From Candidatus Woesearchaeota archaeon (GTDB lineage Archaea; Nanobdellota; Nanobdellia; Woesearchaeales; UBA9642), in the NCBI GenBank assembly GCA_003599145.1, contig QZIT01000001.1:62001-126000 (forward strand): 64,000 nt of DNA, given 5' to 3'. The notes under the pieces were generated by a model that searched no databases, was not told the DNA's origin, and saw nothing but the letters and a program-made list of their open reading frames with translations. Position 1 is the first letter of the stretch; each line of letters opens with the position of its first letter. The translations under genes and the position numbers were made by a program. This document shows, one piece after another, positions 6,177 to 62,117 of the stretch.

Positions 6177-7145
6177 TTGCAGACATTTAAACTTGATAAA
6201 AAATCAGCTTGGGCATTCTTAGGCAAACTCAAGGATGACTTTGAGCTTATAGCCCCTGTAAAGAAGGATTTGGTAAGATTTGAAACAATCGAAGATACAA
6301 AGGACATTTATCTTGAAAAAAATACCTATTTTTCTGTTAAAGAGTACTTTTTTAAAAAGCATGAAACCATTTTTCAATTTGACGGCAATAAAATTACGGT
6401 TCCTGTAGCGCAAACGCCAAAAAGAGTTTTTTTTGGCATAAGAAAATGCGATTTGAACGGCATCAAGCATCAGGACATGGTGTTTACTGAACAAATTAGT
6501 GACCCTTATTACACGGCTGCAAGGGAAAACAGTTTTTTATTGGGCTATCACTGCAATGAAGCGCCCTCTGTTTACTGTTTTTGCGGTTCATTGAATTTAG
6601 TTGACTATTACGATTTAATGTTTTATGACCGAAAAGATTTTTTTCTTATAGAAATAGGAAGCGAAAAAGGCTCTTTTTTAGTGAATAAGTACAAACAATT
6701 TTTTAAAGAAACTGCTCCTGAAATAAAAGCAGATGAAAAAATAATTTATGGCGCAGACAGATTGGAAAAAAAAGATATTTCAAAATTGTATGACCATCCT
6801 GACTGGAAAAAAGGCGTTGATTTATGCTTGTCATGCAGTGCATGTACGGCAGTTTGTCCTACATGCTATTGCTTTGAATTGCATGATACGGTAAAAACAG
6901 AAAATCCTGCTCAAGGAGAGCGAGTAAGAGAATGGAGTTCCTGTCAAGTGCAGGAATTTTCAAAAGTAGCAGGCAATCATGTATTCAGGGAAAAAAGAGA
7001 AGAACGGTTTAAGCATAGAATTTATCATCAATTAGAGTATTTTAAAGAAAAAAACGGCATAAATTTATGCGTTGGTTGTGGACGGTGTATTGAAGGCTGC
7101 CCAACCAGAATTGACTTCGTACAAATCATCAACGAGATGAAATAA
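6177..7145 (+). CDS. hydB: NADP-linked [NiFe] hydrogenase beta subunit, 4Fe-4S protein
   Basis: A 322-residue electron-transfer subunit of the sulfhydrogenase (group 3b [NiFe] hydrogenase) family, related to anaerobic sulfite reductase subunit A. Two ferredoxin-like cysteine clusters are visible: C217, C220, C223, C227, C230 and C232, then C298, C301, C304 and C308 (CVGCGRCIEGCP). In characterised homologues such subunits pass electrons between the flavin subunit and the hydrogenase core. The TTG start at 6177 is chosen because the SD GGTGAGGAG sits immediately before it and no ATG is suitably placed. Its stop codon overlaps the ATG of hydG by one base (TAATG), so the two are translationally coupled. 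First gene of the hydBGDA operon. Confidence 0.92.
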   Translation: MQTFKLDKKSAWAFLGKLKDDFELIAPVKKDLVRFETIEDTKDIYLEKNTYFSVKEYFFKKHETIFQFDGNKITVPVAQTPKRVFFGIRKCDLNGIKHQDMVFTEQISDPYYTAARENSFLLGYHCNEAPSVYCFCGSLNLVDYYDLMFYDRKDFFLIEIGSEKGSFLVNKYKQFFKETAPEIKADEKIIYGADRLEKKDISKLYDHPDWKKGVDLCLSCSACTAVCPTCYCFELHDTVKTENPAQGERVREWSSCQVQEFSKVAGNHVFREKREERFKHRIYHQLEYFKEKNGINLCVGCGRCIEGCPTRIDFVQIINEMK

Positions 7146-7969
7146 TGAAACAAAAAGCAGTCGCAAAAACAGAAAATCCTTTTGTTCCAAAACCCTATAA
7201 AATATTGGAATTTTACAGGGAAACCCCGGACACATTCACCATAACCATCAACATGGCCGTGCAACATGCTCCTGGGCAGTTTGTTCAGGTTTCCTTGCCT
7301 GGAATAGGAGAATCTCCCATCTCTATTTGTTCAGATTCACGAGAGCATATCAAGTTAAACATAAGGGAAGTTGGCAACGTAACAAGAGCGTTGGCAAATT
7401 TAAAGAAAGGAGACACTGTTCTTGTCAGAGGTCCTTACGGAAAGGGATATCCTATGGAATCATTAAAAGGAAACAGCTTGCTTATTATAGGAGGGGGTTG
7501 CGGTGTTGCACCATTAAAAGGGATTATTGATTATGTTGAGAATCATAGAAGCGAATATAAAGACGTACAGTTGTATTTAGGATACAGAACTCCTGATGAT
7601 ATTATTTTTAAAAGAGAGCTGGATGAATGGGTTAAAAAATACCATTTGAATGTCACTGTTGACAAGGAGGCTCATGGACAGTTTTGCTATGATGTTAAAG
7701 AAGGATTTATCACTGACGCTTTAAAAAAATCAGATATAACCAATGAAAACAAAGTTGTCTTTGTCTGCGGACCTCCTGTTATGATGAAGTATGTCATTCA
7801 AATTTTAAAAGACAAAGGCTTCAATGATGACCAGATATTCATCAGTGCAGAACGATTGATGTACTGCGCAGTAGGCGTTTGCTGCCATTGCATGATTCGG
7901 GGAAAATTTTGCTGCATGGATGGCCCTGTCTTCAGATATGATGAAGTAAAAGACTTCAAGAATGATTAA
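7145..7969 (+). CDS. hydG: NADP-linked [NiFe] hydrogenase gamma subunit, FAD/NAD(P)-binding
   Basis: A 274-residue ferredoxin-NADP reductase-like subunit. The N-terminal half is an FAD-binding beta-barrel, followed by an NAD(P)-binding fold with the glycine motif IIGGGCGVAPLKG and the late VFVCGPPVMMK motif. A C-terminal [2Fe-2S] site has cysteines at about 241, 246, 249 and 257 in the family spacing C-x4-C-x2-C-x7-C, before the conserved DGPVF. The subunit exchanges electrons with NADP(H), so the enzyme can make H2 from NADPH or reduce NADP+ with H2. It overlaps hydB by one base and precedes hydD by eight bases. Confidence 0.93.
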   Translation: MKQKAVAKTENPFVPKPYKILEFYRETPDTFTITINMAVQHAPGQFVQVSLPGIGESPISICSDSREHIKLNIREVGNVTRALANLKKGDTVLVRGPYGKGYPMESLKGNSLLIIGGGCGVAPLKGIIDYVENHRSEYKDVQLYLGYRTPDDIIFKRELDEWVKKYHLNVTVDKEAHGQFCYDVKEGFITDALKKSDITNENKVVFVCGPPVMMKYVIQILKDKGFNDDQIFISAERLMYCAVGVCCHCMIRGKFCCMDGPVFRYDEVKDFKND

Positions 7970-7977
7970 AGGATACC

Positions 7978-8796
7978 ATGACAAAACTCTTTCAAATAAC
8001 TGAAAAAAAGGAAAAATTGAAAATAGGCGTGTATGGCATTACTGGCTGTGCAGGCTGCCAATTATCTGTTATTTTCAATGAAGATGAAATACTCGACGTT
8101 GTTTCCTTGGTTGATTTTAAGGCATTCCCATTTATCAAAGAAGTCAATTTAGACCAAGAATTTGATTATGTTTTTATTGAAGGATTGGTTGCAGACCAAG
8201 AAGATTTAGAAGTACTTGAAAAAATAAGAAAGAACACGAAATTTTTAGTTTCTCTTGGAGCCTGTGCATGCACTGGCTGTGTTCCTGCATACAGGCAATT
8301 TTCATTAAAAGAAAACTATGAGCATTTGCTGTACAAAAAAGTTCAGGATTTAGAGGATATAAAGCCAACGCCTGTTGACGCTCATGTAAAAGTTGATTAT
8401 TATATTCCCGGCTGTCCTCCAGATAAAAGAGAAATTATCACGTTCATCAAAAATGTAGTCATGGGAAAACAGCCAAAACCTTATGAAAGCCCTGTCTGCG
8501 TTGAATGCAGAAGGAATGGAAATCAATGCTTATTGGATTTGGGAAAGCCATGTTTAGGGCCAATTACTGCAGGAGGGTGCAATTCAGTATGCACCAATGG
8601 CGGTTTTGAATGCTGGGGCTGCAGAGGCCCAACAAAAGACATGAATCTGGATTTGATGATTAACATTTTAAAAGAAAAGGGATTTGATGAAAAATTTATT
8701 CAGGACAGATTAAGAACATTTGTAGGGCTTAAGCTGCCTATGCTAGAAAAGGTGCTCCATGGAAAAGATAACGCTGAATCACATAACAAAAATTGA
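7978..8796 (+). CDS. hydD: [NiFe] hydrogenase small (delta) subunit
   Basis: A 272-residue [NiFe] hydrogenase small subunit. The proximal-cluster cysteines start with C24-A-G-C27 in GITGCAGCQ, followed by GACACTGCVPA near 95 and YIPGCPPDK near 145. The C-terminal third holds more cysteines (CVECRRNGNQC, CNSVCTNGGFECWGCRGP), consistent with the three Fe-S clusters of group 3 small subunits. It forms the catalytic dimer with HydA and has no Tat signal, as expected for a cytoplasmic enzyme. Its last 38 bases overlap the start of hydA in another frame, an unusually long overlap that ties the two products together. Confidence 0.94.
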   Translation: MTKLFQITEKKEKLKIGVYGITGCAGCQLSVIFNEDEILDVVSLVDFKAFPFIKEVNLDQEFDYVFIEGLVADQEDLEVLEKIRKNTKFLVSLGACACTGCVPAYRQFSLKENYEHLLYKKVQDLEDIKPTPVDAHVKVDYYIPGCPPDKREIITFIKNVVMGKQPKPYESPVCVECRRNGNQCLLDLGKPCLGPITAGGCNSVCTNGGFECWGCRGPTKDMNLDLMINILKEKGFDEKFIQDRLRTFVGLKLPMLEKVLHGKDNAESHNKN

Positions 8797-10030
8797 AGGC
8801 CATGCCAAGTTAGATTTGGCAGTCGACAAAGGGCAGGTAACCAAATGTGAACTTTCAGCTGTAGAAGGCAGCCGTTATTTTGAAGGATTGGTTTTGGGAA
8901 GAAAATATTTTGAAGCGCATGAAATGACTTCCAGAATCTGCGGCATCTGCAGCTGCGCCCATGTCATTGCGGCTATTTCTGCAATAGAAGACGCTCTTGA
9001 TTACAAACCCACAAAACAGACGCATGAATTGAGAGTCTTACTGACGTTGGGAGAAAGAATCAGAAGCCATGCAACCCATTTATACTTTTTAGCATTGCCT
9101 GACTATTTAGGGTATGAATCAGCATTGGCCATGGCTCCAAAGTTTAAAAAAGAATTAAAAAACGCCCTGCAGTTGATGAAAGTGGGCAATAACATAGTAA
9201 AAGTCATAGGCGGAAGGGATTTGCACCCTGTTTCTGCAACCATAGGTGGTTGGTTGAAGGTTCCAGAGCAAAAGCAAATGCAGGAATTGCAAAAAGAGCT
9301 TGAATCCAGTAAAGAAGCAGCAGAAAAAACGTGCAATCTATTTTCTTCATTGCAATATCCAAAATTTGAAAGCGATACAGAGTGGTGTGCACTGGTAAAC
9401 AAAAATGAATATGCCGTTTTAAAAGGCACCTTTACCTCTCCAAAAGGAGTTTTTGAAAAATCACTCTACAGGCAGTACATTAAAGAGTATCACGAGCCTA
9501 GGTCAACGGCAAACTTTGTCATCAGAGCAGGCCATCGCTATGCTGTCGGAGCACTATCGCGATTAAATTACAGCTCTCAATTTCTAAGTCCGGATGCAAA
9601 AAAAATGCTGAAAAAATCAAAATTAAAATTGCCCTCCCAGAATCCCTACATGAACACGATTGCACAGGCTATTGAATTGGTGCATTGCATTGATCATGCA
9701 ATACAAATTTGCAAAACCTTAAAAGTACAAAAAGAACCTGTTGCTGAAATAAAAGTAAAGGCAGGCACAGGCATAGGTGTCATTGAAGTTCCCAGAGGAA
9801 CGTTATGGCATGAATATACGCTGGATGAAAACGGAACCATAACAGGAGCTAATATCATTACGCCCACTGCGCAAAACTTATTGAACATACAGGAAGACAT
9901 CAGAGCATTTGTTCCCTCTATGGTAAACAAAAAGAAAGAGCAGATTGTTGTTGAAATTGAAAAATTGATTAGAAGCTATGATCCCTGCTTTTCCTGTTCA
10001 GCGCACTTTTTGGAAGTCAACTGGCAATGA
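8759..10030 (+). CDS. hydA: [NiFe] hydrogenase large (alpha, catalytic) subunit
   Basis: A 423-residue catalytic subunit. Both nickel-binding motifs are intact: RICGICSCAH with C61, C64 and H68, and DPCFSCSAH with C410, C413 and H416. After H416 there is only a seven-residue tail (FLEVNWQ), the kind of C-terminal peptide that a hydrogenase maturation endopeptidase removes after nickel insertion; the likely protease is the next gene, joined by an ATGA overlap. The N-terminus KITLNHITKIEGHAKLDL is typical of group 3 enzymes. Together with HydB, HydG and HydD it should form a soluble NADP-linked hydrogenase able to dispose of electrons from fermentation as H2. Confidence 0.95.
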   Translation: MEKITLNHITKIEGHAKLDLAVDKGQVTKCELSAVEGSRYFEGLVLGRKYFEAHEMTSRICGICSCAHVIAAISAIEDALDYKPTKQTHELRVLLTLGERIRSHATHLYFLALPDYLGYESALAMAPKFKKELKNALQLMKVGNNIVKVIGGRDLHPVSATIGGWLKVPEQKQMQELQKELESSKEAAEKTCNLFSSLQYPKFESDTEWCALVNKNEYAVLKGTFTSPKGVFEKSLYRQYIKEYHEPRSTANFVIRAGHRYAVGALSRLNYSSQFLSPDAKKMLKKSKLKLPSQNPYMNTIAQAIELVHCIDHAIQICKTLKVQKEPVAEIKVKAGTGIGVIEVPRGTLWHEYTLDENGTITGANIITPTAQNLLNIQEDIRAFVPSMVNKKKEQIVVEIEKLIRSYDPCFSCSAHFLEVNWQ

Positions 10031-10380
10031 AAACAGTGTATGTCTTTGGAAACGAATATTTAACAGAAGACAACTTTGCCAAAGAAATTGCAAAAGACCT
10101 GCAGGACGTAAAGCTTGTCTATTGCACAGGTCCAGAAGAGTTGCTAGATAAAAAAAAGGTCATCATCCTTGATGTCGTCAAAAACATTCAGGAACCGATG
10201 ATCATCACGGATATTGATCAGTTAAAATCAAGAAGCATCGTCAGCATGCATGACTTTGACGTTGCCTTCTTCCTCAAATTGCTTAAGGAAATGGGCATAA
10301 CGCAAACTATAAAAATCATAGGCATACCTCAAAGTGGAGATAAGGAAAAAATTATTGCAAAGGTGAAATCATGGATATGA
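10027..10380 (+). CDS. Hydrogenase maturation endopeptidase (HyaD/HycI-like)
   Basis: A 117-residue protein of the M52 hydrogenase-processing protease family. It opens with VFGNEYLTEDNFAKEIAKDL, matching the GN-x3-x-DD start of the family with an acidic nickel-probing residue; an Asp (IILDVVK) near 50 and a His in SMHDFDV near 78 fit the other expected ligands. It is shorter than bacterial members (about 150-165 residues), like several archaeal ones. It starts inside the hydA stop codon (ATGA), so it is coupled to its presumed substrate, the HydA C-terminal tail. Assignment rests on the motif plus position. Confidence 0.83.
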   Translation: MKTVYVFGNEYLTEDNFAKEIAKDLQDVKLVYCTGPEELLDKKKVIILDVVKNIQEPMIITDIDQLKSRSIVSMHDFDVAFFLKLLKEMGITQTIKIIGIPQSGDKEKIIAKVKSWI

Positions 10381-11270
10381 AAAAAGGTTTATGGCTTGTT
10401 TTGTTTACGGCAATCATTTCAGGATTTTCAATATTCTTAAACAGCTATGTGGTTAAAAGCTTTGACAGCTCTGTTTTCACGTTTGCAAAAAATGTTGTTG
10501 TTGCACTTCTGTTGTTTACCATCATTCTTGCGATAGGACAATGGAAAAAAATTAAGGAGTTAACCAAAAAACAGTGGTTGCAGTTAAGTGCCATTGGATT
10601 GATAGGAGGAAGCATTCCGTTTCTGCTGTTTTTCAAAGGATTACAGATGACCACAGGAACAACAGGAGCTTTTATTCATAAAACCCTGTTTATTTTCATT
10701 GCAGTGCTTGCGTTATTGTTCTTAAAAGAAAAATTGAGCAAAGGATTTTTGATAGGAGCAGTCTTATTATTGATAGGAAATTACCTGTTTATCAGACCTC
10801 AGTTTACTTTTTCCACAGGACATATTTTGATAGGCATTGCTGTAGTTTTCTGGGCAGTTGAAAATGTACTTGCAAAACATGTTGTTAAGGAAGTATCGGG
10901 AAGCATTGTAGGATTTGGAAGAATGTTTTTCGGTTCACTGTTTATTTTGATATTTTTATTTGCAACAAGCAAAGCAGGAATTATTTTGAGCATGACAGGA
11001 ATACAGTATCTCTGGATTTTGATAACAGGAGTTTTGCTCTTGCTTTACGTGATAACGTATTACAACGGATTGCAATATGTTAAAGTCAGCACAGCAGCAG
11101 CTGTTTTAACCATAGGCTCGCCTATAACGACGCTGTTAACTTTTTTCTTTCAGGGAAAAGGATTTACTGTTTATGAGATTGCAGGAAGCTTTTGCATTGT
11201 TTTAGGAGTTGTTGCAATAATCTGGTGGGCAAAGCTTGCTTCCTTACTAACGCAAAACGTGAAAGAATGA
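10377..11270 (+). CDS. EamA/DMT-superfamily membrane transporter
   Basis: A roughly 297-residue integral membrane protein with ten predicted transmembrane helices arranged as two EamA repeats (five each), as in the drug/metabolite transporter superfamily. Conserved features include the GGSIPFLLFFKGLQ segment at the end of the first repeat and YYNGLQYVKVSTAAAVLTIG in the second. Two close ATGs exist (10371 and 10377); the second forms an ATGA overlap with the stop of the protease gene, the coupling style used before and after it in this operon. The substrate is unknown; export of a metabolite linked to fermentative metabolism is only a guess. Confidence 0.85.
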   Translation: MKKGLWLVLFTAIISGFSIFLNSYVVKSFDSSVFTFAKNVVVALLLFTIILAIGQWKKIKELTKKQWLQLSAIGLIGGSIPFLLFFKGLQMTTGTTGAFIHKTLFIFIAVLALLFLKEKLSKGFLIGAVLLLIGNYLFIRPQFTFSTGHILIGIAVVFWAVENVLAKHVVKEVSGSIVGFGRMFFGSLFILIFLFATSKAGIILSMTGIQYLWILITGVLLLLYVITYYNGLQYVKVSTAAAVLTIGSPITTLLTFFFQGKGFTVYEIAGSFCIVLGVVAIIWWAKLASLLTQNVKE

Positions 11271-11983
11271 ACGGCATAGAACTAGCCATCAGATTTTCAT
11301 TCATCACCAATTCTTTGCAGTTCTGCGGCCCTCACTGCGCTTCTGACCAGTTCATGGAATATGTTGATAAAAAAAACAATGAAAAAGACGTTGAAGATTC
11401 TCTAAAAAAATTTGAAGGTTTATATCCTTATTTGTCAACCATTGCAGAAAAAACAGGGAAAAAATTTACTGATTATGAAGTTATTGAGGCTTACTGGATA
11501 GGCAATAAACTGTTGGAGCAGTTTGACAAAGAGGATTTGAAAAAAATCATAGAAAAATTGATGCAGAGAGGCTTGCCAAAATCAATGGGAGAAAAACTGA
11601 TAAAAAACATGCCTTCTGGCTTTATGCCTCATCATAATTTCAATGTTTTTTATGTTGGCGTTGGCAATACCACGGGTTCGGTGCCAACAAACTTGCAAAA
11701 CATGGACAACTGCAGAATTTCCTGGGGAAAAGTTTCTGAAGTGCTAACAGAAAAAGTATTGGTGCAGACTCCTGTTTTGAAAAAGCAGGGCAACCAATAC
11801 TATTTAGGCAAGGAAGAAACAAAAACCATCGTCTTTAAGCCGTCATTATTTCCCTCCATAAAAAAAGGAGATGTTATTGCCCTTCACTGGGGATTTGCAT
11901 GCCTTGTTTTAACAGAAGAGCAGTTGAGCAATTTAAAAAAATACACGAGAAAGATTATTGATGTGATGAACAAAATAGGATAA
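11267..11983 (+). CDS. Unknown protein, paralogue A of a hydrogenase-linked pair
   Basis: A 238-residue soluble protein starting in an ATGA overlap with the transporter gene. It shares a set of conserved motifs with the next gene: EAYWIGNKLLE, a PHHN motif followed by a beta strand (MPHHNFNVFYVG), an MDNC motif, and GDVIALHWGFAC near the end. The two are clearly paralogues though they differ in length and diverge between motifs. The repeated His, Cys and Asn in conserved positions suggest a metal- or ligand-binding role, and its place as the third gene after hydA suggests a hydrogenase accessory function; both are inference. I do not recognise the family with certainty. Confidence 0.75.
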   Translation: MNGIELAIRFSFITNSLQFCGPHCASDQFMEYVDKKNNEKDVEDSLKKFEGLYPYLSTIAEKTGKKFTDYEVIEAYWIGNKLLEQFDKEDLKKIIEKLMQRGLPKSMGEKLIKNMPSGFMPHHNFNVFYVGVGNTTGSVPTNLQNMDNCRISWGKVSEVLTEKVLVQTPVLKKQGNQYYLGKEETKTIVFKPSLFPSIKKGDVIALHWGFACLVLTEEQLSNLKKYTRKIIDVMNKIG

Positions 11984-12015
11984 AAATTTATAAAGCGAAA
12001 AAACATTCTTACCCT

Positions 12016-12651
12016 ATGACCCTTGACAGAGTATTGAGCGCTGCATTTTCCTATCCGACGCTTAAAGAAAAAGATGATTCTTTAGGAAGAACCTTATTGG
12101 CCGCTGCGCAAGGAAAAACGCCTGCAAAAAAGGCTTATCAGATTCTTTGCAGAACATATTTATTCCCTGTTGTCGTTCCTTATTTCAGGCTTATTGCAGA
12201 ACAGCACGATCTTGAGCTGTTTGATCCAAAAGTCGCAGAAGCGTATTGGATAGGCAATGAACTCTTAGAGGGAGATTGGGATTACACAAGAGTGCATCAA
12301 GACATATCCTTCAAAATGCACCAGCACGATTTGAAAAGAAAAATTCCGGATATGCCGACAGCAGCTCCGCATCATAACACCCACGTAAAGGTATATGGGT
12401 CAATTTCGCATGAACCAACAGCAGAAGAAAGAGACCACTGCATGGTTAAAGCTGTGGAAATTGCAGACGTTAACAAGCAAGGAATTTTTGTTACAGAGAA
12501 AACTCCTCCTTTTTCACACGCAACTGTTCAAAATCCCTATAACTTCAGGCTGAACGGAAGAATATTTGCTGTGCACAGAGGAGCATTGTGCTGGCCATTG
12601 GATGAAAAAGGCTTCAGAAACCTGATGAAATGGGGTTATGGCGTCAAGTAA
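12016..12651 (+). CDS. Unknown protein, paralogue B of a hydrogenase-linked pair
   Basis: A 211-residue soluble protein, paralogue of the previous gene. Matching motifs are EAYWIGNELLE, APHHNTHVKVYG, ERDHC, and GRIFAVHRGALCWPL. It has its own TATA box (TTTATAAA, 11987-11994) 26 bases before the ATG, so although it follows the hydrogenase operon by only 32 bases it can be transcribed separately from a leaderless mRNA. That arrangement means dosage of the pair could be set independently of the hydrogenase. The 3' end overlaps the convergent double-Lrp gene by 16 bases. Function unknown. Confidence 0.75.
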   Translation: MTLDRVLSAAFSYPTLKEKDDSLGRTLLAAAQGKTPAKKAYQILCRTYLFPVVVPYFRLIAEQHDLELFDPKVAEAYWIGNELLEGDWDYTRVHQDISFKMHQHDLKRKIPDMPTAAPHHNTHVKVYGSISHEPTAEERDHCMVKAVEIADVNKQGIFVTEKTPPFSHATVQNPYNFRLNGRIFAVHRGALCWPLDEKGFRNLMKWGYGVK

Positions 12652-13625
12652 GGCTTTATCATTTCTTTGTATGCAGGCATCCACGTTTCATCAATCATAA
12701 TAAGATGTTCATAGTTTCGTATCACCGAAGAATATTTTTTTCTCAGCTCATTAATGATGGCGTTGAACTGCTGATAATTTTCAACGGCAAATTCAAACTC
12801 AACCTCCCAGGGAGCTAAACTTCTAATGTAATAAAGCGCGTTTGGATGCACCCTCATCCATTCAAAAAGCGATTTTTCATCCTGCGCAGAAAGCTTTTTA
12901 AAATAAATAATTGCCTTGAAAAACTCATAGCCCAGCTTATTAAAGTCAACGGCAATTCGATAATTGAGAATAATCTGCTTTTCTTCTAGTTTCTTTATCC
13001 TGCTTCTTACCGTATCTATGCTCGCATGCACTCTTCTTGAGAGCTCCATAAGAGAAATTCTCGCGTCGTTTGCCAGAATGTTTAACAGCTTTGCATCAAT
13101 TTCGTCAATCTCATTATGCACAACGTCCCCGCCAAAAAGAACATAAGTTCCATTTTTGTCGTTAAGAAAAAACTTCTTATTGTACTGTCTCGTATCGACC
13201 ATAGTGCCTAAAACTTTGCTTACAATAAGATGCTCCCATTTGGATAACAAACTATTGATTTTTTGAAAATAATCTGTTGTACTTTTTGACAGCATGGCAA
13301 AGACGCAGTCAAAAACGCCGTCAGAAATACCCATCCAGTAAACATCCTTATTTTGCTTAAGCTCTTCAAAAAACTTTTCTCTCTGCTCAGGGATATTTGC
13401 CAATTTCAGATAGACTTTAAACATAGAGTATCCTAATTTATTGGGATTAATAGAGGTAATGAACTGTTGGATAACGCCGTTTTTTTGCAGCTGCTGTATT
13501 CTATATTTTACTGCCTCTCTAGATTTATGTACTTTTTTTGCCAATACCGCGTTAGCAATCCTGCAGTTCTTGTCAAGCTCTGCAAGAATCTTTTTATCGG
13601 TTAAGTCAAGCTTTATTTTGTCCAT
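12636..13625 (-). CDS. Double Lrp/AsnC-type transcription regulator
   Basis: A 329-residue regulator made of two Lrp/AsnC units in tandem. Each has a winged helix-turn-helix (first LDLTDKKILAELDKNCRI with VHKSREAVKYRIQQLQKNG; second IDEIDAKLLNILANDARIS with VHASIDTVRSRIKKLEEK) followed by a RAM-like alpha/beta segment. Two relatives of the same layout lie at 31035 and 57023. An Lrp normally dimerises to pair its HTH domains, so a tandem protein carries a built-in dimer. It sits next to the hydrogenase operon and divergent from the FG-GAP gene; hydrogenase or FG-GAP control is inferred from position. An inverted repeat in its promoter suggests autoregulation. Confidence 0.85.
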   Translation of the reverse strand: MDKIKLDLTDKKILAELDKNCRIANAVLAKKVHKSREAVKYRIQQLQKNGVIQQFITSINPNKLGYSMFKVYLKLANIPEQREKFFEELKQNKDVYWMGISDGVFDCVFAMLSKSTTDYFQKINSLLSKWEHLIVSKVLGTMVDTRQYNKKFFLNDKNGTYVLFGGDVVHNEIDEIDAKLLNILANDARISLMELSRRVHASIDTVRSRIKKLEEKQIILNYRIAVDFNKLGYEFFKAIIYFKKLSAQDEKSLFEWMRVHPNALYYIRSLAPWEVEFEFAVENYQQFNAIINELRKKYSSVIRNYEHLIMIDETWMPAYKEMIKPYLTP

Positions 13626-14509: not shown

Positions 14510-14719
14510 TTAAGCAACAGCCTTCTTATACAATTCTAAACTCTCCTTTGCTTCAACATCAGAAACTTTTTGGATAACAAAACCTCCCTGGACAAGAACA
14601 TAATCGCCTATTTTAAATTTTTTTTCAACCAACGTTGCAGTTCTTTTTTCTACATCATAATCAACAGTCGCCTTATCTCCCTTAATGGCAATAATTTTTC
14701 CAGGAACCATTAAACACAT
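14510..14719 (-). CDS. hypC: Hydrogenase maturation chaperone HypC
   Basis: A 69-residue HypC/HupF-family protein. It begins MCLMVPGKI, with the essential cysteine directly after the initiator methionine, and has the beta-barrel pattern VDYDVEKRT and KIGDYVLVQGGFVIQKV. HypC works with HypD in building the Fe(CN)2CO group and carries it to the large hydrogenase subunit. The ATG overlaps the hypA stop codon by one base (TGATG). HypB, HypD, HypE and HypF are not encoded in this window and must lie elsewhere if the hydrogenase is matured normally. Serves the hydBGDA enzyme 4 kb away. Confidence 0.95.
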   Translation of the reverse strand: MCLMVPGKIIAIKGDKATVDYDVEKRTATLVEKKFKIGDYVLVQGGFVIQKVSDVEAKESLELYKKAVA

Positions 14720-15054
14720 CAGACAGTCACCTCTTTTAGGATAATATCATGGCCGTCTAAAATTTTAGGCATAGGCAGACTGCACTTTGGACACTCAAAT
14801 AGCGTGCTGTCATGGCCTTTATGAATGATCTTTGGCTCTCCGACAAAACCGCAGCCACATTGTACTTTTGCTTTTTTGGCAAGCATGATCACCTTATACT
14901 TCACCATAGCTTTCAAGGTAGCCTCCATTTCTTCCAGAGGGAGGTGTGCAACATCGCCTACTTCAACAGTAATGGATTTCACTTTTTTCTTTTTTTCTTT
15001 TTCAACGATTTCCACTTGCTTCAATATTTGCTGGGCAATAATCTGTTCATGCAT
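14719..15054 (-). CDS. hypA: Hydrogenase nickel-incorporation protein HypA
   Basis: A 111-residue HypA. The N-terminal MHE, with the nickel-binding His2, is present, and the zinc-ribbon cysteines appear as CGCG near residue 70 and CPKC near 93 (two Cys pairs). HypA delivers nickel to the hydrogenase large subunit, normally with the GTPase HypB, which is not found here. The SD AGGTGAT lies just before the start, and the gene follows the MCM-like ATPase gene by eight bases, so the two are likely co-transcribed. Confidence 0.94.
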   Translation of the reverse strand: MHEQIIAQQILKQVEIVEKEKKKKVKSITVEVGDVAHLPLEEMEATLKAMVKYKVIMLAKKAKVQCGCGFVGEPKIIHKGHDSTLFECPKCSLPMPKILDGHDIILKEVTV

Positions 15055-15062
15055 CGTATCAC

Positions 15063-16220
15063 CTAATATGTTTTATAGAGGCTGTTTTTGAAAATATCAA
15101 GAACGACCTGCAAGTCTTCTTTCAATACTTGATTTCGCAGGTGCATTCTGGCATGTGCTTTAGCCATGTTGATAATGCCTACAACAATTCTCGGTGTTAA
15201 AGGCAGCAAAAACTTTTTTTCGTCATCTTTAATTTTTTTTATGAATACCGTAATCGTCTGCTCGAGGTTTTTATCAAATAAGACTTCAATCTGGTCTGCA
15301 AATTTCACATAGTCCTTAACAAACAACACATCATCTTTTTTTAAGGGTTTATTCTCCCTTCTAATAATGGATTTAGTGATGTCCATGAATTTTTCTGTTG
15401 TTGGTTTCTTGACGAAGAAAACAAGATGAAACCTGCTTAGCAATGCAGGGTCAAAGGGAATTTGCTTTTTTACTTTTTTCTCGTCAAATTTATCTCCTCT
15501 AGGATTTGCTGTTGCTAAAACCCTAACATTTGCCTCAAAACGCCTATGGGTGTTGCCTTTGTCATAGGTTACAAATCCTTTTTCCATGGCATTGTATAAT
15601 GAGCCTAAATCTTCTTTTTTTAAGAGATTTAATTCATCCAAACAGCAAATGCCATTGTTTGCGCTAGGCAGTAAACCGGGCGTTATCTCTCTTCCTATGG
15701 TAACGGTTAAACCAGCTCCTGTTGTTCCGCTTCCTAAACCAAAGCTTGCTATTGGAGAAGCGTCATAAACAGAATGCAGTATTTCTGTTTTTCCTGTTCC
15801 AGGATCCCCTAAAAGCAACACATGGAACCGTTCTTTTGCAAATAACTGCAGCAAAACTGCATTTTTAATATCTTCAAATCCAACTAACTTAGGAGCTATA
15901 ACCTGCAAAAACTGCTCTGGAGTGCATCTTGCATAGAGGTCTTTTTTCAATTTAGGTTCATATGCAGTTTTAAGCCCTTCAACAACTCTTTTTACCTCTT
16001 TATCTTCTGTTGCCAAAACCATTCTCGGATAAGCATAACTAGGGAAAAACGTCGGATTGACAAGATCCAAAAATAAATCAACTTTTTTTAATTTAAGCAG
16101 GTATTTTACATCATTCAACTGCTTTTTGTTGAGATATTGCGAAAGAACGCTAAGTGCTTTTTTCTCCCTTTTATGCAAAGACCTAAACAATCTGAAAAAA
16201 TCACCTGCCTTTTTTTCCAT
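15063..16220 (-). CDS. MCM-like AAA+ ATPase linked to hydrogenase maturation genes
   Basis: A protein of about 385 residues with an AAA+ core most like the MCM family: Walker A GDPGTGKTE, a GAGLTVTIGRE stretch, Walker B GICCLDELNLL, sensor 1 VRVLATANPRGD, and the arginine-finger motif LLSRFHLVFF. The usual MCM N-terminal OB-fold and zinc domain is missing; a short helical N-terminus replaces it. It lies in a row with TrmB, hypA and hypC, eight bases before hypA. A replicative role seems unlikely for this truncated form; a chaperone-like role, as with MoxR-type ATPases, is possible. The ATG at 16220 is chosen because upstream in-frame starts fall inside the TrmB gene. Confidence 0.78.
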   Translation of the reverse strand: MEKKAGDFFRLFRSLHKREKKALSVLSQYLNKKQLNDVKYLLKLKKVDLFLDLVNPTFFPSYAYPRMVLATEDKEVKRVVEGLKTAYEPKLKKDLYARCTPEQFLQVIAPKLVGFEDIKNAVLLQLFAKERFHVLLLGDPGTGKTEILHSVYDASPIASFGLGSGTTGAGLTVTIGREITPGLLPSANNGICCLDELNLLKKEDLGSLYNAMEKGFVTYDKGNTHRRFEANVRVLATANPRGDKFDEKKVKKQIPFDPALLSRFHLVFFVKKPTTEKFMDITKSIIRRENKPLKKDDVLFVKDYVKFADQIEVLFDKNLEQTITVFIKKIKDDEKKFLLPLTPRIVVGIINMAKAHARMHLRNQVLKEDLQVVLDIFKNSLYKTY

Positions 16221-16245
16221 AGTAATAGCTAATAAAGGAGTATTC

Positions 16246-16974
16246 TTAAATCTTAGCTTTTTTCCACAGCAACTCAAAGTATTTTCTATAGCCTTCTGCA
16301 ACCTTTGCATCATGGATTAAAATACTATAGGCATTTTCGGTAAAGACATTGATGGCTACACTATCGCCTACAATAACGGTTTCCTGAAACTGGGCAAATT
16401 CTTTTGCAAGAAATTTTATTTTTGTTAATGGTTTGGAAAGAATATCCTTTCCAGGCTTTCTGACGCTTTCATCAAAAACTTGCCTTGAAGGAAGTTTATT
16501 CGCAACCCTTTTTGCGTGCAGGTTTAACCACCACGTTATTCCCATGTACTTTGCACATTCCTCTCCCCCTCCAAAAGTAAGATATTCTTTTGCCTTTATG
16601 GAAATCATCGTATGATAGGCTTCAGCAATGCCCCGTTTTCCTTTATAAATAGTTGCTACCTCTGGCTTTTTGGCAAAGTACTGTTTTTGCTTTAATTCAG
16701 GCAAAATTTCCTGAAACCTTCTCTTCTTTTCATCAATAAACTGAAAGAAATAGTCTGGGTCAGTTGCCTGGTAGATTTTTCTTTTTCCCTCGAGGATAAA
16801 ATTTACCAAGCCTTTTTCCATCAGCGTATTTAAGGCTCTATGAACGACAGAGTTTTGGAGACCTGATTTTTCCAATAAAGGACCTGCAGTGCTGCTTCCT
16901 AATTCTAATAAGGTCATATAGGTCTTTATTTCAGAGATGGTTAGTCCTAAATCCTGCAGGATTTCAATGTCCAT
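16246..16974 (-). CDS. TrmB-family transcription regulator
   Basis: A 242-residue TrmB-type regulator. The N-terminal winged HTH (LQDLGLTISEIKTYMTLLEL, then ALNTLMEKGLVNFIL) is followed by a helical linker and a C-terminal phospholipase D-like ligand-sensing fold. TrmB proteins sense sugars or other metabolites and repress or activate transport and metabolic genes. It is first in the operon with the MCM-like ATPase, hypA and hypC, and it is head to head with the unknown gene at 17092. A TATA box (TATAAAAA) lies about 29 bases before the ATG, so its mRNA should be leaderless. A second TrmB is at 53689. Confidence 0.88.
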   Translation of the reverse strand: MDIEILQDLGLTISEIKTYMTLLELGSSTAGPLLEKSGLQNSVVHRALNTLMEKGLVNFILEGKRKIYQATDPDYFFQFIDEKKRRFQEILPELKQKQYFAKKPEVATIYKGKRGIAEAYHTMISIKAKEYLTFGGGEECAKYMGITWWLNLHAKRVANKLPSRQVFDESVRKPGKDILSKPLTKIKFLAKEFAQFQETVIVGDSVAINVFTENAYSILIHDAKVAEGYRKYFELLWKKAKI

Positions 16975-61407: not shown

Positions 61408-62117
61408 AGTTAACCAAAAAACAACAGGAACAGATAAAAAAGCAATTATTGCAGCATCAGAGACCTACGCTTGAAGCAAAAATGGTTCTGGATGCAAAAA
61501 CAACCTTAACCTTAACTATTCAAAAAGGCGTTGTCGGCTCTGACATCATGAGCTCTGGAATATATCTTGCAAAATTTCTCTATAAACATAAGAACATATA
61601 TCAGAAAAAAATCTGCCTTGATATGGGATGCGGTCCTGGAACGCAGGGATTGATTATGGCAAAATACGGGGCTACGGGAGTGCTCTGCACCGATATCAGC
61701 CCTCTTGCGATAAAAAACACGCAGGAAAACGCAAAAAAGATGAAACTTCATGTTCACGCTTCTGTTAGCGACTTGTTCAAAAACATTCCAAAGCAGAAAT
61801 TTGATGTTATTGTCTTCAATCACCCTTTCTTTCCAGAAGAAGCAGAAAATTTTGGAGATGAAATTACCAAAGACGTCATGTTAAGGAAAAGCATGCTTGG
61901 AGGAACAACACTCATTCATGACTTTTTGAAAGATGTTTCAAGTTATCTGAAAAAAAACGGAGTTCTCATCATGCCTTTTTTTAGGTTTGCAGGCAAGGAG
62001 AACGACCCTGGAAGATATGCAAAAAAATACAAGTTAAAGATTGTCAAAAAAGAAAAAGTGCTTTCAAAACAAGGCCTTCAAAAAGGCGATTTTTCCATAT
62101 ATGTCTTCAGTTGGTAA
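61404..62117 (+). CDS. Class I SAM-dependent methyltransferase
   Basis: A 237-residue methyltransferase of the N6-adenine/HemK-like type: motif I CLDMGCGPGTQGLIMA, acidic LCTDISP, and motif IV VIVFNHPFF (NPPF-like with His). The target could be a protein, RNA or DNA. It starts at a GTG within the alaS stop (GTGA), so it is co-translated with it. Its end abuts the Rpp21 gene from the other strand. Confidence 0.82.
   Translation: MKLTKKQQEQIKKQLLQHQRPTLEAKMVLDAKTTLTLTIQKGVVGSDIMSSGIYLAKFLYKHKNIYQKKICLDMGCGPGTQGLIMAKYGATGVLCTDISPLAIKNTQENAKKMKLHVHASVSDLFKNIPKQKFDVIVFNHPFFPEEAENFGDEITKDVMLRKSMLGGTTLIHDFLKDVSSYLKKNGVLIMPFFRFAGKENDPGRYAKKYKLKIVKKEKVLSKQGLQKGDFSIYVFSW

Follow-up and report, generated by a model that had tools for sequence, protein, structure and literature searches.

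The analysed window is a stretch of 64,000 bp (positions 62,001 to 126,000 of contig QZIT01000001.1, assembly GCA_003599145.1) from a woesearchaeal genome of the DPANN archaea. This genome (here G000) is 1.31 Mb in size, consists of six contigs and is 97% complete. The part of interest contains a group 3b [NiFe] hydrogenase operon, followed by a maturation protease, a transporter and two proteins of unknown function, and then, on the other strand, a possible regulator and two hydrogenase maturation genes. The features are as follows.

6177..7145 (+): HydB, iron-sulfur subunit, sulfhydrogenase beta type (PF17179)
7145..7969 (+): HydG, FAD/NAD(P) subunit, sulfhydrogenase gamma type (PF00175, PF10418)
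7978..8796 (+): HydD, small subunit, sulfhydrogenase delta type (PF01058)
8759..10030 (+): HydA, [NiFe] large subunit, with all four active-site Cys (PF00374, E 4.6e-30)
10027..10380 (+): HycI-type hydrogenase maturation protease (PF01750, 24.2 bits, cut-off 23)
10371..11270 (+): EamA (DMT) transporter of a hydrogenase-associated subfamily (PF00892, 120 bits)
11267..11983 (+): DUF6390 protein 1 (238 aa), with a helical domain at about 1-149, a HypC-like beta domain at about 150-214 and a C-terminal helix at 217-234
11324..11326 (+): codon of Cys20 (CGP) of protein 1
11711..11713 (+): codon of Cys149 of protein 1, aligned to HypC Cys2
11885..11887 (+): codon of His207 (HWG) of protein 1, aligned to the HypC His51 turn
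11987..11995 (+): TATA-like TTTATAAAG upstream of protein 2
12016..12651 (+): DUF6390 protein 2 (211 aa), a divergent paralogue of the same architecture, without the N-terminal CGP Cys
12439..12441 (+): codon of Cys142 of protein 2, in register with Cys149 of protein 1
12574..12576 (+): codon of His187 (HRG) of protein 2, in register with His207 of protein 1
12636..13625 (-): protein with two Lrp/AsnC-type DNA-binding domains, convergent with protein 2 and overlapping its end by 16 bases; possible regulator
14510..14719 (-): HypC (69 aa; PF01455, 60.5 bits), which keeps Cys2 (MCLMVPGK) but has lost His51 (VQGGF)
14719..15054 (-): HypA, nickel metallochaperone (PF01155, 45.2 bits)
15063..16974 (-): AAA+ ATPase-like gene and TrmB-like regulator, directly upstream of HypA on the same strand; the AAA+ gene was found in only one other locus examined

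The four-subunit operon, with both CxxC motifs in the large subunit, identifies a group 3b hydrogenase. However, the NCBIfam sulfhydrogenase alpha model, although the best match (E 4.6e-87), gives 292.9 bits against an equivalog cut-off of 880, so that the enzyme is a distant relative of that type.

A predicted HypC-like domain in the DUF6390 pair

A sequence-only reading had described the two proteins as a paralogous pair sharing EAYWIGN, PHHN, a conserved Cys (MDNC/RDHC) and an H(W/R)G motif, and this observation is confirmed. The proteins align over 182 residues at 29% identity (E 3e-14) with all four motifs in register, so the resemblance is not due to chance. That reading also named, without confirming the match, a family called DUF6390; the profile search it had called for shows that the family is right, with PF19927 scores of 153.7 bits (E 7.7e-45) for protein 1 and 28.5 bits (E 1.3e-6) for protein 2 against a curated cut-off of 25. 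The ATGA overlap at 11267-11270, which had been read as coupling to the hydrogenase operon, is real, but its upstream partner is the EamA gene, which lies between the protease gene and protein 1. The leaderless promoter proposed for protein 2 fits the TATA-like element 21-29 bases before its ATG, although promoter activity was not examined. No NCBIfam model matched the pair, and a sequence search against solved structures gave nothing relevant.

The first hint of the nature of DUF6390 was a sub-threshold HypC match in the C-terminal part of protein 1 (PF01455, 11.9 bits, E 0.25, cut-off 28.5); protein 2 has no such match. Profile-profile comparison of DUF6390 with HypC gave 93.8% probability and E 1.8e-7, with Cys149 on HypC Cys2 and His207 in the HypC His51 turn. 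Cys20 and Cys149 are at least 90% conserved in DUF6390, and His207 is invariant in 67 sequences. The AlphaFold2 model of protein 1 is confident (pLDDT 97.7, pTM 0.93) and consists of about 150 residues of helices, then the beta domain and a C-terminal helix. Its top Foldseek match in the PDB is HypC of Thermococcus kodakarensis (2z1c; probability 1.00, TM 0.71 by target length), and HypC chains of the HypCD and HypCDE complexes (3vyr, 3vyt and 3vys) occupy ranks 3, 5 and 6. The Foldseek E-values are weak (best 9e-3) because only one third of the chain matches, and other small beta-barrels (ribosomal proteins) lie in between. The helical domain has no known relative in the PDB, and nothing resembling the iron-sulfur domain of HypD was found. 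Protein 2 shows the same architecture at lower confidence (pLDDT 87.4), with HypC entries among its top Foldseek matches at weaker E-values.

In related genomes without DUF6390, a protein of about 160 residues, here called HypC160, occupies the corresponding place near EamA and HypC. It is related to both DUF6390 (E 6e-11) and HypC (E 3e-12). Its N-terminal Cys14, His83 and the HypC-like His148 are invariant, whereas the HypC-like Cys is present in 19 of 25 proteins and is Ser in the other six; this Cys therefore cannot be essential in every relative.

HypD, HypE and HypF in hydrogenase-bearing genomes

We searched 279 genomes of the phylum for DUF6390, PF00374, HypD and HypC, and the hydrogenase-bearing ones also for HypE and HypF. 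Sixty genomes have a [NiFe] large subunit over cut-off, and only 10 of these have HypD. The same 10, and no others, have HypE over cut-off and HypF (nine over cut-off, plus a contig-end fragment in genome G267). The remaining 50, including G000, lack HypD, and lack HypE and HypF over cut-off. Of these 50, 12 carry DUF6390 and 34 carry full-length HypC160, whereas four show neither protein and are unexplained. The two forms exclude each other except in genome G108, one of the 34, whose hydrogenase locus uses HypC160 but which also has a protein-2-type DUF6390 (locus L111, 8952-9569), suggesting that the protein-2 type is a separate lineage with its own role. None of the 10 HypDEF-positive genomes carries an intact DUF6390 or HypC160, and full-length HypC160 was found in none of the hydrogenase-less genomes searched. 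The association gives a Fisher p of about 1e-8; it was not corrected for phylogeny, and counts by genome are not independent observations. HypB, the nickel-insertion GTPase, is also mostly absent, so that gene loss goes beyond HypDEF: it is over cut-off in 3 of 41 genomes tested (G006, G154 and G222) and missing in G000 and 37 others, even in several HypDEF-positive ones.

A scan of 84,980 species genomes matched 373 DUF6390 stretches. The closest relatives of the window proteins are woesearchaeal, and the best 80 loci come from Woesearchaeota, Thermoplasmata, Diapherotrites, Patescibacteria, Armatimonadetes, Bacillota and Chloroflexia, among others. In these 80 loci, EamA, of one subfamily, lies within 1 kb of DUF6390 in 73, HypC is present in 67 and HydA in 64 within the contig piece examined, several of the rest being on short contigs. 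The loci of the family nearly always hold a group 3b hydrogenase and HypC. Gene labels in the G+C-rich loci rest on profile matches to six-frame translations. Loci L158, L176 and L218, binned as Spirochaetales, Aminicenantes and Deltaproteobacteria, have hydrogenases that fall among woesearchaeal ones, those of L158 and L218 being near-identical, so these bins may hold misplaced archaeal contigs. HypD was found in 0 of 50 DUF6390 genomes of this wider scan, and HypF over cut-off in 0 of 36; HypE was not searched in this set. Homologues occurring mostly without hydrogenase genes had been named in advance as the result that would count against a hydrogenase role, and the opposite was found: besides the 64 of 80 wider loci, 14 of 15 DUF6390 genomes in the phylum sample carry PF00374.

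The hydrogenases of HypDEF-less genomes still look catalytic. The four metal-binding Cys and the PRG motif are kept in all 96 HypDEF-less HydA sequences, and the PT motif in 95 of 96 (one has Ser for Thr); these Arg and Thr motifs belong to the pocket around the diatomic ligands of [NiFe] hydrogenases. HypDEF-positive and HypDEF-less enzymes are interleaved in the HydA tree, in which the five positive rows need five changes, at least three of them forced by strongly supported branches. The large subunit of the window is 71.4%, 69.0% and 68.8% identical to those of the HypDEF-positive genomes G234, G112 and G016, respectively. The same kind of enzyme is thus paired with either gene set, which suggests the same cofactor.

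Complementary changes were found in HypC and in the HypDEF-positive loci. HypC His51 is kept in 9 of 9 HypC copies from HypDEF-positive loci (some loci overlap; six distinct genomes), but is lost in 83 of 91 copies from other loci, including that of the window, eight of the 91 keeping it; DUF6390 supplies an invariant His (His207) at the matching place. Where HypDEF is present, the DUF6390/EamA module has decayed in three of the five loci examined. DUF6390 of G234 has lost both Cys20 and Cys149; G016 has a truncated DUF6390 of 177 residues and no EamA; and genome G156 (locus L153, 12269-12490) retains, next to HycI, only about 50 N-terminal residues of EamA running head-on into 24 N-terminal residues of HypC on the other strand, as left by a deletion. 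Both Cys are also lost in the DUF6390 of genome G066 (locus L110, 9994-10692), in which no [NiFe] hydrogenase, HypC or EamA was detected. This pattern is what functional replacement predicts.

Proposed role in assembly of the iron unit

HypD, HypE and HypF are thought indispensable for building the iron-cyanide centre, and HypC Cys2, possibly HypC His51, and HypD Cys41 are reported to coordinate the iron (PMC12134894). The explanation that we consider more likely than not is that DUF6390 is a hydrogenase maturation factor and that, in organisms without HypDEF, DUF6390 or HypC160 works with the small HypC as the scaffold and carrier on which the iron unit of the [NiFe] cofactor is held and passed to the large subunit. 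In this view HypC would contribute Cys2, and DUF6390 would contribute Cys149, His207 and probably Cys20, in place of HypD Cys41 and HypC His51; HypA would then support nickel insertion and HycI would cleave the C-terminus. The linked EamA transporter probably moves a small molecule that makes HypDEF unnecessary. Protein 2 is probably a second, specialised copy. Our analysis establishes the HypC-like domain, the residue correspondence, the absence of HypDEF, the genomic substitution and the conserved active-site motifs, whereas the complex with HypC, iron binding, the identity of the ligands, transfer of the unit and the role of EamA are inferences; no biochemistry was done and no HypC-DUF6390 complex was modelled. 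The sequence-only reading, which had inferred a hydrogenase accessory function such as metal handling or assembly from the position after hydA and the protease, is supported, and strongly so for the accessory/assembly role. The metal site it placed at the HHN and HxG residues is only partly supported: the conserved Cys and the HxG His match HypC Cys2 and His51, but in the predicted structure PHHN lies in the separate helical domain, and distances between Cys20, His123, Cys149 and His207 were not measured. It did not see the main point, the absence of HypD, HypE and HypF.

No CN- or CO-forming enzyme was found at the loci, and we identified neither the source of these ligands nor the substrate of EamA. 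A HydG/HydE-type radical-SAM synthesis is rejected as a general source, because the BATS domain was found in only 4 of 43 genomes and not in G000. Clustering of the genes at the loci recovered only the hydrogenase subunits, HycI, HypA, HypC, EamA and DUF6390/HypC160 as widely shared; the other large clusters were shadow frames or restricted to Thermoplasmata. Nickel import by EamA is less likely, since HypDEF-positive relatives need nickel too but lack an intact EamA at the locus.

A tentative alternative, compatible with the above, is that the cells import a ready-made iron-cyanide/CO unit, or its cyanide or CO precursor, through EamA, which would then be the decisive part, DUF6390-HypC only receiving the unit. 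Transport of a precursor or an iron-ligand unit is the leading but weakly supported idea for EamA. The same EamA subfamily also accompanies HypC160, is absent or only a fragment in the five HypDEF-positive loci examined, and is strongly conserved, with Ser21, Glu124, Trp165, Glu168, Arg188 and Tyr235 (numbering of our alignment) invariant or nearly so in 100 copies. However, no such metabolite is known, EamA substrates are diverse, genome G007 has DUF6390 without EamA at the locus, and lineages with 2-4 Mb genomes carry DUF6390 as well.

It is also possible, though doubtful, that DUF6390 is a specificity chaperone for the large subunit, like HypC or HybG, which binds and delivers an iron unit made by some unknown enzyme and does not itself replace HypD. 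HypC-type proteins carry Fe(CN)2CO to the apo-large subunit (PMC8692609), and the shared domain is that of HypC. In contrast, the occurrence of DUF6390 is tied to the absence of HypDEF, and its Cys residues are lost in HypDEF-positive G234, whereas a pure specificity factor should be needed in both settings. A different cofactor, lacking CN and/or CO or containing another metal, for which HypDEF is not needed and DUF6390-HypC loads a simpler metal centre, would agree with the failure to find a CN/CO-forming enzyme at the loci and with the lack of HypB in most genomes, but is unlikely given the retained four Cys and ligand-pocket motifs and the interleaved HydA tree. That HypDEF are present but were missed, through incomplete assemblies or divergent sequences, is very unlikely: although most genomes are metagenome-assembled, all three are absent from the single-contig genome G004, HypD and HypF are absent from the complete AR10 chromosome (CP010424; L220/G315), and the models match strongly in the same 10 positive genomes each time.

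The widest reading, which we regard as about as likely as not, is that a second biological route to the Fe(CN)2CO centre, independent of HypD, HypE and HypF, exists across DPANN archaea, Thermoplasmata and several bacterial phyla. Its minimal kit would be HypC, DUF6390 (or HypC160), an EamA transporter, HypA and the protease, with the diatomic ligands or an iron-ligand unit coming from a source not yet known. Dozens of genomes with hydrogenases that keep their active-site motifs but have no HypDEF, and with a consistent substitute gene set, would make the question directly testable and could offer a smaller gene kit for producing hydrogenases. The finding also gives a function hypothesis to DUF6390 and warns against reading a hydrogenase without hypDEF as inactive or as an assembly gap.

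Comparison with known maturation systems

Both window proteins belong to Pfam DUF6390, a family with no assigned function. We found no paper on DUF6390, and none on HypDEF-less [NiFe] maturation, in the open-access literature searched, outside which such hydrogenases could have been noted; the HypC-like domain, the link with HypDEF absence and the EamA partner were likewise not found there. A survey of Woesearchaeota reports group 3b hydrogenases without discussing maturation (PMC8421398).

The HypC/HupF/HybG chaperones (PF01455; PDB 2z1c, 2ot2) share with DUF6390 the beta-barrel domain, a Cys preceding the first strand, a His in the GDxVxxHxGxA turn, the C-terminal helix and the hydrogenase locus. 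In DUF6390, however, the Cys is internal rather than the second residue of an MCxxxP start, an extra helical domain of about 150 residues precedes it, the Pfam HypC score is below cut-off, and the protein occurs beside a canonical HypC. We therefore claim a HypC-like domain and not membership of the HypC family; binding to HypD or the apo-large subunit and carriage of Fe(CN)2CO were not assayed. The HypC-HypD scaffold complex (PDB 3vyr) resembles the proposed role, in which two proteins share Cys/His ligands to hold the iron unit, but here there is no HypD fold, no iron-sulfur domain, and no HypE or HypF (over cut-off) in the genome, which thus does not have the canonical HypABCDEF system. HoxV/HupK and HoxL-type auxiliary maturation factors (PMC12134894) are also extra scaffolds or carriers in hydrogenase maturation; HoxV, however, is described as receiving the unit from HypCD and so acts downstream of HypDEF, and HoxV/HupK resemble large subunits.
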